Positions 1 to 23,995 of a stretch of DNA of 32,196 nt are shown piece after piece. How positions within the stretch are numbered: the first letter of the stretch is position 1; each line of letters opens with the position of its first letter. The notes below the pieces were generated by a model that was given only the letters and a program-made list of their open reading frames with translations, made no database searches and was not told the DNA's origin. A program made the translations under genes and the position numbers. Source of the stretch: Parcubacteria group bacterium GW2011_GWA2_47_21 (GTDB lineage: Bacteria > Patescibacteriota > Minisyncoccia > Phycocordibacterales > DSPV01); NCBI GenBank assembly GCA_001000545.1, contig LCOC01000003.1:1-32196 (forward strand). The letters are read 5' to 3'.

Positions 1-42
1 CCTTTCGGACTCATCAGTCCCGACACACATCGGGAGAACAGC
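1..42 (-). ncRNA. Type III hammerhead ribozyme, truncated by the window edge
   Basis: Minus strand: GCTGT-T-C | TCCCGA TGTGTG TCGGGA CTGATGA GTCC GAAA GG. It has a UUC cleavage triplet, a 6-bp stem I, the core CUGAUGA, and stem II GUCC/GG(AC) cut by the edge. The GAAA core and second stem III strand would lie outside the window. Confidence 0.82.
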
Positions 43-103
43 GGGACGATTTTCATCATCCCAGTAGTTTCCGCTCACCAAGCGCCGAGGAGCTTCCCCT
101 CGG
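43..103 (-). ncRNA. 61-nt three-hairpin structured motif, copy A (3' of the 190-522 ORF)
   Basis: Minus: CCGAGG-GGAAGCT-CCTCGG / CGC-TTGGTGA-GCG / GAAACTACT / GGGATGAT-GAAA-ATCGTCCC. Aligns without gaps to copy B (1050-1110), with identical loop GGAAGCT and compensatory stem changes. Confidence 0.7.
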
Positions 104-189
104 AATTGCGCACCAGTCTCGTCGGTGATAACGCCGTGATAATCGCGGCCGATGGAAGTTTTCGAGGCCCGCTTTCAACCTAACCCATC

Positions 190-522
190 TCACTCGATTG
201 CCGGATAGGCCTTGGAAGAGATGAGCTCCACCGTCCTTATTGTGGGGTTCCACCGCACGACCATCTCCACTCTGGTCGGTTGCCCGTTGGTGAGATATCC
301 TACCGCAGTGGCCGCATGCACTCGAAAGTGCTCCAACAAGTTGGTGGACTTGGTCTCCACAATCACTTGCCCGTTCGTTCCCTGCCCAACTACCCTCCAG
401 TGGTTGGTGGGAAAAAATGTGCGGTTGTACTGACTTTTGTCAGTTTCCACGACGCACCCAACGGCAATGAGAGTTGCGACTGCCAAAATGGCAATCCCGA
501 TGTTATTGGTTTTCATGTTCAT
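190..522 (-). CDS. Small lipoprotein-like secreted protein (110 aa)
   Basis: ORF begins MNMKTNNIGIAILAVATLIAVGC, a signal peptide with a lipobox-like cysteine. It has an upstream promoter-like element and a structured leader. Confidence 0.6.
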   Translation of the reverse strand: MNMKTNNIGIAILAVATLIAVGCVVETDKSQYNRTFFPTNHWRVVGQGTNGQVIVETKSTNLLEHFRVHAATAVGYLTNGQPTRVEMVVRWNPTIRTVELISSKAYPAIE

Positions 523-568
523 AGTGCCCTAGATACTGTCTCACAGCATCCAAAACACTATGAACATG
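514..568 (-). promoter_or_regulatory. 5' leader hairpin sequestering the start codon of the 190-522 ORF
   Basis: Perfect 13-bp inverted repeat CATGTTCATAGTG (514-526) / CACTATGAACATG (556-568). The ATG (520-522) lies in the downstream arm. There is an inner GATGCTGT/ACAGTATC stem. Confidence 0.65.
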
Positions 569-955
569 TTTTACAAAGAACTATACTCTATGAATCCGCG
601 AAAATCTTTTGTTCGTGGACTCAAGAAAGTGGAGCAAAAGCCTGCTCCATATCCGATGGACACCTCGCCACCTTCCCGCTTCGCCACATATGCAACATGT
701 AGCATCTACAACCAGCGCCACCTCTTTTGGGCTTTGTTGGTTTCTTGAAAAAGAACACATGAACCAGTTTCGTAGCATTCTGACGCCATCTATCTATTTG
801 GTCCAAATGGTGACCTTCGCTCTCTCATTACGCACCCGGCTCCAAGCGATATGGCCGTCTTCGCCTCCGTACTCCAAACCACGGTAGCGGGTTGGCCGTT
901 TAATGAGAAGTCCCTCAATCTCTATGAATCCGCTTCATTTTTGACGAAACGAACT

Positions 956-1001
956 CAAAAAAGTGAGGAATGTCTGGTTTTTGAATTGACCAAGACATTC
1001 C
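956..1001 (-). terminator. Rho-independent-like terminator downstream of the DUF1874 unit
   Basis: Minus: GGAATGTCTTGGT...ACCAGACATTCC followed by TCACTTTTTTG. Confidence 0.65.
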
Positions 1002-1049
1002 TCTGCAAATACTCATCCGTTGATGAATCAACCTTTGGCGGATAGCAGA

Positions 1050-1110
1050 GGGATAGAATAATCTACCCCAACAGTTTCGGCTCGTCAGGCCCTTCGGAGC
1101 TTCCCCGAAG
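1050..1110 (-). ncRNA. 61-nt three-hairpin structured motif, copy B (3' of the DUF1874 ORF)
   Basis: Minus: CTTCGG-GGAAGCT-CCGAAG / GGC-CTGACGA-GCC / GAAACTGTT / GGGGTAGA-TTAT-TCTATCCC. Same length and layout as copy A. Confidence 0.7.
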
Positions 1111-1156
1111 TAAATTATGCGGCTGTTTAATGTCAGGCCGATATGACACGCGAGCA

Positions 1157-1504
1157 CTACTCGGAAACTGTAAACAAGGCGAAGCTGAACTTCGCGCCTG
1201 CCACTTCTTCCTGTGTGTACTCGTGCCGGTTCTCCAACCGGGGGAGTCCGCTGACCCCCATCACCAAGGCCCTTTCGCCGCTCTGCACAACCACGCTCGG
1301 CGCTTTCGGTGGGATTTCCACCGAGATACCGAAACGGGTCTGCATCACATCGATGCTCGCCTTATGGGATGGGTTGAGACAAGAAACCACACCGCCTGCA
1401 ATGACCTCCTTTGCCTGCTCCACCGTAAGCGTCTGCTTACGGATGGTGCAGTTGGAGGGGAACATGCTGGGGGCGATTCCGAATCCGAAGTATGTTTTTT
1501 GCAT
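1157..1504 (-). CDS. DUF1874 / STIV-B116-like protein (AcrIII-1/Crn2 viral ring nuclease family)
   Basis: NPSHKASIDVMQTRFG aligns with the family motif xxGH(x)(S/T)xxLxxxLG. GERALVMGVSGLPRLENRHEYTQEEVAGAKFSFALFTV matches the family C-terminus. Alignment is from memory. Confidence 0.75.
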   Translation of the reverse strand: MQKTYFGFGIAPSMFPSNCTIRKQTLTVEQAKEVIAGGVVSCLNPSHKASIDVMQTRFGISVEIPPKAPSVVVQSGERALVMGVSGLPRLENRHEYTQEEVAGAKFSFALFTVSE

Positions 1505-1547
1505 AGCGACCTAAAACCTAACAATAAGTTTCAGATCGCCATGCAAA
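1498..1547 (-). promoter_or_regulatory. 5' leader hairpin sequestering the DUF1874 start codon
   Basis: Minus arms TTTGCATGGCGATC (1547-1534) and GGTCGCTATGCAAA (1511-1498) pair over 14 bp with two G-U wobbles. The ATG (1504-1502) is in the 3' arm. Confidence 0.65.
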
Positions 1548-1582
1548 ATGATTGTTTCCAAAGAACTGTGCTATACTGAATT

Positions 1583-1605: not shown

Positions 1606-1678
1606 GCCAACAGTGTAGCAGATAGAAGATATTTGTCAAGTTTATGTTTTTGAAAAATCCTGATAAATAATACTATTG

Positions 1679-1740: not shown

Positions 1741-2428
1741 ATGGAAGAAAAAATTTTAATGGATTGTGGTTTATCGGCCGAGCAAGTAAAAGTGTATCTG
1801 TTCCTCCTGAAGAACGGCCAAGCACCGGCCAAACGCATCGCCACGGCCACCGGTGTTGGCCGAACTCTTACCTATAAAGTGCTGGAACAATTAATCGCCC
1901 TGGAGCTTGTAGAAAAGAAGGACAACATAACGAAAGTGACATTTTTCTTTCCAGCTCACCCGCAACGCTTAAAAGAACTTGCCGCTAAAAAACTTCAAAC
2001 CACGGAACAAGCTACCGCAAACTTAAACTCCATCTACGGAGCCCTAACCTCCGAACGACGATATTTTAAGTATTGGCCAGGAGATCAGAGTAATCAGCTC
2101 CCCCATTGAAGAAGGTCGCAAAGAAATTCTCCATTTAATTCGCGAACAAATACAAAAACAGGTAGCGCAAAACATCAAAACTAAAGCGATTACTCCGATT
2201 GGACATCAAGAAATCGCCACGCCAGTGGCGGAAGACGAAAAATATTTAATAACTCGCAAAATAGTGCCGAAAGACGAATTACATATACCGGCTCAAATAA
2301 TTATCTATGGCGAAAAAGTGGCTATCACCAACTTTAAAGAAGGTTTCATTAATGTTCTTATGGAAAGCAAATATATCGCCGACACATTTCGGATTATGTT
2401 TGAATATATGTGGAACAAAATTCCTTAG
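1741..2428 (+). pseudogene. TrmB-like transcriptional regulator, frameshifted
   Basis: ORF 1741-2109 carries an N-terminal winged-HTH of TrmB type. The continuation ILSIGQEIRVISSPIEEGRKEILHLIREQ...FEYMWNKIP is read in the +1 frame to 2428. Confidence 0.6.
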
Positions 2429-4803: not shown

Positions 4804-4851
4804 GACACGAGAGATAATTCCAAAATATGTATACCAGCCCCCTAAATATCT

Positions 4852-4907
4852 ATAACGGACATTCTATCGGACATTTTGTCCTTTGTGTCCGATAGAATGT
4901 CCGTTAT
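4852..4907. repeat. Perfect 22-bp inverted repeat built of TAaCGGACAT/TAtCGGACA units
   Basis: ATAACGGACATTCTATCGGACA - 12 nt - TGTCCGATAGAATGTCCGTTAT. Confidence 0.9.
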
Positions 4908-4949
4908 GTTAGCTTGAGAAATGTCCGATAGAATCTCTAAAGGACATTT

Positions 4950-5387: not shown

Positions 5388-5564
5388 ATTTTAGTTCTAA
5401 GGGTCTATAAAGGACATTTTTACACACTGCCAACATACTTATCCACAGTTTATACTAAAAATGCTTAAATTATGGCTTAACTGCGGCAAACTAAGAAACT
5501 CTATCGGACACACACTACCAATGTCTCTTACGTACTATTGTGTTATCTGCGTGTTAATTAATAT

Positions 5565-23326: not shown

Positions 23327-23995
23327 ATGGTTGGCAACATCGCCCACATTTGTAATAGAGGGGTAAACAAACAAATAATTTTCTCTAATGAGAAAGAATA
23401 TTTAAGATTTCTGGAAACAATTTATAAAAGCAATAACAAAAATGGGGGCGTTAGGACAAGAGTGAAAAATTTTCTTGATGACCCGCCGCCGCAAGATAGA
23501 ATTGTTGAAATACTGAAGTGGTCACTTTTGCCGAATCACTATCATTTGCTGGTTTATGAAAAAGTTGAGGGAGGTATTGTTGAATTCACAAAAAGAATAG
23601 GCAACAGTTACACCAAATATTTTAATATCAAAAACGACAGAAGCGGTTACCTGTTTCAAAACACCGCGAAAATGATTCGGATTGAAAGAGAACCGCACTT
23701 CAATTACATACCATTTTATGTAGAATTAAACCCCTTGGACCTTTTTGACGAGGGTTGGCGAACGGGTAGGATTAAAAATCCGTCGGGAGCAATAAAATTT
23801 TTAACAGATTATCCGTGGTCAAGTTACACTGACTATAGCGGTAAAAATAATTTCCCAATGTTAATCAACAAAGAAATATTTTTTGGTGAATTCGAAACAA
23901 ACCAAAAAAGATACGAAAAAGAAACTTTGGCTCTAATTAAGGATAAAAACGCGTCAACCTGGCAGGTTGACGCGTTTGATGTGTTAGGAAAATGA
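23327..23995 (+). mobile_element. REP-associated tyrosine transposase (RAYT; IS200-like Y1 HUH transposase)
   Basis: HICNRGVNKQIIFSNEKEYLRFLE; HUH motif LLPNHYHLLVYEK; candidate catalytic Tyr in RIGNSYTKYFN; PWSSYTDY. Confidence 0.88.
23947..23977. repeat. 31-bp perfect REP-like palindrome at the 3' end of the RAYT gene
   Basis: AAACGCGTCAACCTG-G-CAGGTTGACGCGTTT. Confidence 0.95.

Follow-up and report, generated by a model that had tools for sequence, protein, structure and literature searches.

Two small-gene cassettes in a Parcubacteria genome probably belong to a chromosomal array with predicted hammerhead ribozymes, boxA sequences, and an adjacent TrmB-family regulator gene

Patescibacteria are very small, symbiont-like bacteria. 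The stretch of DNA analyzed here (the window, 32,196 nucleotides) opens contig C3 of a MAG of 490 kb that is 73% complete. The initial annotation had described two minus-strand units with a common layout, and both are present where it put them, with ORFs of the lengths it stated: 115 aa (ORF B) and 110 aa (ORF A). The likeness of the units extends to their flanks. The two leader regions aligned at a score of 48 and the two 3′ motifs at a score of 44; the best scores among 500 shuffles were 34 and 35, respectively. Several features had been overlooked: a hammerhead ribozyme at the contig end, the identity of the shared upstream box as boxA, X hairpins, a pseudoknot-like element, and a divergent gene for a TrmB-family regulator (Table 1). 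No further units were found in this genome outside the window, and the contig ends there. Because the window shows only two units, their resemblance might be a chance likeness between two short genes of a CPR genome that share no common system. This idea can practically be dismissed, as it is already refuted by related loci that contain whole arrays, covarying hammerheads, additional copies of the 3′ motif, and a recurrent cassette.

Table 1. Positions of the array features and the TrmB-family gene in the window
Feature	Position	Strand	Basis
Type III hammerhead ribozyme, 3′ end lost at contig end, CTGTTCTCCCGATGTGTGTCGGGACTGATGAGTCCGAAAGG	1..41	-	R1 covariance model, 40.2 bits, E 3.9e-9
Hairpin between 61-nt motif and hammerhead, GGGATGATGAAAATCGTCCC	43..62	-	Read from sequence
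61-nt structured 3′ motif, copy A	56..114	-	R2 covariance model, 76.7 bits; covariation
Pseudoknot-like element after ORF A stop codon, GGTTGAAAGCGGGCCTCGAAAACTTCC	154..180	-	Inspection only
ORF A, putative lipoprotein, cargo of cassette A (cassette 2)	190..522	-	G703 homologue
Leader hairpin A, 26 pairs, start codon in 3′ arm	514..568	-	Fold; G-U included
boxA of cassette A, GTTCTTTGTAAAAC	568..581	-	Shared box; matches 16S-leader boxA
X element 2, TGAGTCC...GCGGATTCATAGAG, hairpin just before boxA	about 586..623	-	By reading
X element 1, TGAGTTC...GCGGATTCATAGAG, after cassette B	about 920..957	-	Related elements search
Hairpin after 61-nt motif of cassette B	about 1050..1069	-	Fold
61-nt structured 3′ motif, copy B	1063..1123	-	R2 covariance model, 79.4 bits
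ORF B, DUF1874/Csx16-type ring nuclease (AcrIII-1/Crn2 fold)	1157..1504	-	Profiles, AlphaFold, Foldseek
Leader hairpin B, 24 pairs, start codon in 3′ arm	1497..1548	-	Fold; G-U included
boxA of cassette B, GTTCTTTGGAAACA	1553..1566	-	Shared box; matches 16S-leader boxA
Array promoter TTGACA-N16-TACACT, extended -10	1612..1639	-	Best promoter-like site on array strand
TrmB-family regulator gene, divergent from array, frame broken at 2109-2225	1741..2428	+	PF01978, E 3.7e-12

Ring nucleases inactivate the alarm molecules of type III CRISPR systems. On the evidence of profile matches and a predicted structure, ORF B is a member of the DUF1874/Csx16-type ring nuclease family. The profile matches were weak, both to PF08960 (E 3.7e-4 and 21.0 bits, below the Pfam cutoff of 26) and to the PADLOC Csx16 profile (E 2.2e-5). 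A sequence search of the PDB with ORF B gave no match, and the likeness was seen only via structure: the confident AlphaFold model (pLDDT of 87.7) had AcrIII-1 as its best Foldseek match (6SCF; TM 0.78; E 8e-7; only 16% sequence identity), with Crn2 also among the best matches. In addition, His47 is invariant in eight homologues. ORF B shares the fold and His47 with the AcrIII-1/Crn2/Csx16 ring nucleases and has weak matches to the DUF1874/Csx16 profiles, but it differs in its low sequence identity and in its setting: a search for Cas10 in 20 array genomes found none above a marginal partial match. The Csx16 and Csx20 families cleave cA4 (PMC12409355); cA4 cleavage by ORF B, and its use against type III CRISPR or against other cyclic-oligoadenylate signaling, is inferred. 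Other arrays encode Csx20 (genome G193) or Csx3 together with a separate AAA partner (genome G051). In the latter array (locus L117, 8317-9512), Csx3 and the Csx3-AAA-type AAA protein are separate genes in adjacent cassettes. A homologous cargo of unknown family with the pattern SRHDLS-AQV-ALR-LHGEDAE, found in two genomes (L176, 2004-2375; L192, 7718-8164), appears ring-nuclease-like by eye and had no profile match. A Pfam search found no family for ORF A, and only about 10 of 69 cargo proteins scanned had a Pfam family match.

The initial annotation had interpreted the element upstream of each ORF as a promoter. The element is indeed present in both units, but the promoter assignment does not hold. 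In related genomes of the same order, the 16S leaders have the same box immediately after the rrn promoter (examples are GGCTCTTTGACAAG, GTACTTTGAAAAC, and GTTCTTTGAAATG), and the box matches the boxA antitermination signal. Binding of NusB/S10 and transcriptional read-through are inferred from this match. Like the boxA sites of rRNA operons, which bind NusB/S10, the array sites have a GTTCTTTGAAA-type box; they differ in being repeated with each small-gene cassette, directly behind a predicted self-cleaving ribozyme. We rejected the box as a promoter because the only promoter-like site for the array, TTGACA-N16-TACACT, precedes cassette B, and no other site of this kind lies just upstream of a cassette in the window. 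Across loci, a promoter score of at least 10/12 was reached in 9 of 15 array heads, compared with 2 of 55 hammerhead surroundings and a rate of 3.7% among random stretches. Promoter-like sites are no more frequent around inner hammerheads than in random DNA.

The window copy of the hammerhead, which was detected again in whole-genome scans, contains CUGAUGA and the stem I hairpin, and its GAAA side is lost at the contig end. It cannot be shown to be intact because its 3′ part is missing, and stem III cannot be checked there. Complete copies are present in relatives, including G001, the closest relative found with the same array (CTGTTTCCCGATGTGGGTTGGGACTGATGAGTCCAAAAGGACGAAACAG). An ungapped alignment of 20 copies shows only standard pairing at each of the 13 pairs; 10 of the 13 show a compensatory (two-sided) change, and the columns of the core, CUGANGA...GAAA with UH before stem I, are invariant. 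Three covarying stems with stem III open are found in these relatives. The proportion of standard pairs is biased in favor of structure, because most of the 20 copies were first picked by a finder that demanded some pairing. Judged from the sequences, the wide variety of stem I is still hard to explain otherwise. That finder returned 34 matches, compared with 3 on a reversed-sequence control. When 39 sources were first scanned with the covariance model, 57 of 59 matches had E values below 1e-4, one of them the window edge. Self-cleavage of these elements is inferred.

Hammerheads are spread across the phylum. The covariance model identified them in 34 of 392 genomes of the class and 38 of 341 genomes of the phylum (9 to 11% of the genomes sampled), often several per locus and separating short ORFs. 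An exact search for a 28-base core in 85,488 species genomes returned 19 stretches; the records comprise ten from Patescibacteria or their lineages, one from Caldiserica, and the rest from uncultured bins. A consensus-like hammerhead-boxA query also had three partial matches to Bacillus/Cytobacillus plasmids. The array copies share with the Rfam type III hammerhead (RF00008) the catalytic core, three stems, an open stem III, and loops on stems I and II, but they score under the gathering cutoff and have a linked boxA. The best relative scored 42.8 bits, short of the Hammerhead_3 cutoff of 48.5, and the Rfam search did not report the truncated window copy.

The link to boxA is positional. TCTTT, representing boxA, lies within 30 nt downstream of 37 of 56 hammerheads and upstream of 3 of 56, against a background of 8%. 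In further hammerhead loci from new genomes, it was found downstream in 12 of 35. No boxA follows about one-third of the hammerheads in the first set or about two-thirds in the second. At other joints, the place of the hammerhead is taken by an X hairpin (TGAGTTC...GATTCATAGAG), often followed by boxA. Related X elements were found in other array loci, with none in a reversed control. In the window alone, only X elements, and no hammerhead, lie between cassettes B and A. The approximately 300 bases between the two X elements (window 624-919(-)) contain no convincing ORF and are possibly a decayed cassette.

The 3′ flanks also contain structured elements. The 61-nt motif folds into two hairpins supported by four covarying pairs in seven copies. 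The scores of the two window copies are partly circular because the R2 model was built from both of them and five related copies. Searching genomes yielded five further strong copies, three in G703 and one each in G105 and G188 (54 to 67 bits), all of which are on array-bearing contigs, for a total of 12 strong copies in eight genomes. We considered whether the motif could be a degenerate hammerhead and rejected this possibility: the CUGACGA of the motif is located in a hairpin loop closed by covarying pairs (GGC/GCC to CGC/GCG), and in L055 and L223 a true hammerhead comes immediately after the motif. A hairpin follows the motif in the corresponding place in L055. The pseudoknot-like pattern was also seen, by inspection only, in L054, L057, L223, and L225. 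By inference, the 61-nt motif, pseudoknot-like element, and terminal hairpin may together shield the 3′ end that hammerhead cleavage would produce.

The leader hairpins containing the ATG are also present as annotated, but they are larger than the 13 to 15 bp reported, with 24 and 26 consecutive pairs when G-U pairs are counted. A hairpin like that of cassette A, with compensating changes, occurs in L054 (5942-5995), and leader hairpin sequences vary between cassettes. In our first test, with a loose helix definition, start-codon hairpins were not enriched. Under a strict definition, they were found in 6 of 66 hammerhead-led cassettes and 8 of 634 controls, so enrichment under that definition is confined to a minority of hammerhead-led cassettes. 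Where the start codon is buried in this way, the hairpin may restrain translation until some condition is met.

Both halves of the divergent TrmB gene in the window match the array-TrmB profile. The gene has an apparent frameshift and deletion, and the frame is open over approximately 278 aa in relatives; the break is either a mutation or an assembly error. Of 64 hammerhead loci, 18 have a divergent TrmB gene on the upstream side and 7 more have one in another orientation, and many of the remaining loci are cut by contig ends; genomes contain only about 2.7 TrmB genes each. A TrmB gene also adjoins seven of the eight close relatives of ORF B. Hammerheads without a nearby TrmB gene exist, and control of the array by TrmB is inferred. 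About 14 arrays share the housekeeping genes cca, yraN, xth, xerC, rpsO, pnp, and comM in their neighborhoods and therefore appear to occupy a recurrent chromosomal spot. Elsewhere in the window, inverted repeats that are perfect or nearly so (ATAACGGACATTCTATCGGACA and variants) cluster at 4842-4937 and 5404-5521 and are repeated at approximately 5494-5521. A 222-aa protein encoded at 23327-23995(+) resembles, by eye, a REP-associated (Y1-type) transposase and had no Pfam match at 1e-5.

This chromosomal setting bears on a possible phage origin, which had been raised with the initial annotation. Hammerheads are known to cluster around single prophage genes, including the anti-restriction gene ardA, and their cleavage has been shown (Perreault et al. 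2011, PMC3088659). Among phage genomes, the most frequent ring nuclease is AcrIII-1 (PMC12409355). The array could be what is left of a prophage or another mobile element in which clustered hammerheads process the phage transcripts. As in the prophage clusters, several hammerheads on the same strand separate single genes of one transcript, and anti-defense cargo is possible. In contrast to them, the present arrays are chromosomal in Patescibacteria and headed by a TrmB-family regulator and a single promoter, boxA directly follows the hammerhead, and the cassettes recur complete with flanking RNAs and carry ring-nuclease cargo. The flanks inspected lend no support to a phage derivation: those of the window consist of housekeeping genes in a neighborhood common to other arrays, though not every locus was inspected. 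Moreover, the window units had no DNA match in 50,697 phage records, ORF B had no phage protein match, and PHROGs matches were few among the cargo proteins. We consider a phage remnant unlikely.

The initial annotation had also suggested a cassette-like system in which structured RNA surrounds the cargo, and had recommended a search of other CPR genomes for such units with different ORFs. The search succeeded, and whole arrays in many Patescibacteria bear the suggestion out. A homologue of ORF A with 64% identity is encoded late in a long G703 array, in a cassette with the same flanks. DNA identity between the two cassettes is 79% in the 5′ flank, 75% in the ORF, and 80% in the 3′ flank, and they occur in different families and different contexts. 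A complete window cassette, including its flanks, is thus found again in a genome of another family. About 10 other cargo families are common to several arrays with different neighbors, and L060 and L055 have nearly identical flanks around different ORFs.

How such cassettes move is a matter of inference. Tandem type III hammerheads on the same strand bracket the cassettes, and whole cassettes recur elsewhere, as might be expected if released cassette RNAs circularized and were copied back into the chromosome in the manner of retrozymes; plant retrozymes, however, are noncoding, and we find this route very improbable. Another parallel is an integron, in which the folded elements would be recombination sites for a tyrosine recombinase, perhaps XerC, and any RNA role would be secondary. 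Single-ORF cassettes with structured ends, an order mixed between genomes, one promoter-bearing head, and a recurrent chromosomal place all fit, and xerC is in the neighborhood of the window array and eight other array loci. However, xerC is part of a conserved block of housekeeping genes (cca, xth, rpsO, and pnp) and is 9 kb away in the window. The gene at the head is TrmB, with no adjoining dedicated integrase such as IntI. The elements are conserved RNAs with a strictly conserved ribozyme catalytic core that a DNA recombination site would not need, and the leader hairpins differ in sequence between cassettes. No attC core was identified in a reading by eye. We regard an integron-like array as quite unlikely to be the main explanation; integron-like movement of cassettes is neither shown nor excluded.

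Taken as a whole, the observations (anatomy, covariation, box identity, a single promoter-like site, TrmB association, whole-cassette recurrence, and the ring nuclease family of ORF B) are best explained by a chromosomal array of small accessory genes that starts with the two window units as its leading cassettes and has a single promoter next to a TrmB-family regulator, an interpretation that we consider probable. Each cassette would comprise an inter-cassette element (type III hammerhead or X hairpin), boxA, in many cases a strong leader hairpin, a single ORF, and a structured 3′ RNA. From the TrmB-linked promoter, RNA polymerase would transcribe the entire array into a long RNA, which the hammerheads would cut between genes. 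The resulting single-gene mRNAs would have a ribozyme-capped 5′-OH end and a structured 3′ end. Since every cut would free the upstream RNA, along with the previous boxA, from the polymerase, a fresh boxA directly behind each hammerhead would reload NusB/S10 and allow the polymerase to resist termination across many hairpins. This model would account for both the hammerhead-boxA-hairpin-ORF order and the missing inner promoters. We have no RNA data with which to support cleavage or antitermination.

The purpose of bacterial hammerhead ribozymes is an open question (PMC6155905, PMC3088659). Clustered, cleaving hammerheads around single prophage genes were already known (PMC3088659). Our literature searches found nothing linking hammerhead ribozymes with Patescibacteria, CPR, or Parcubacteria or linking ring nucleases with Patescibacteria; the boxA coupling, TrmB-headed spot, and whole-cassette exchange were likewise not found in the literature searched. 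A broader proposal, which we advance only tentatively, is that Patescibacteria maintain a chromosomal cassette platform in which the hammerhead and boxA form a reusable joint, each cut being paired with fresh antitermination. Any small gene with these ends could be added, and the chain would be a library of anti-defense (ring nuclease) and other accessory genes. The recurrent, phylum-wide association of gene, hammerhead, and boxA suggests a direct, testable role for the ribozyme, namely, to cut a long transcript while transcription is kept going. The accessory genes of Patescibacteria are mostly unknown, and the arrays offer a recognizable site in which to seek new small proteins, among them several ring nuclease types in genomes without a detected type III CRISPR cyclase.
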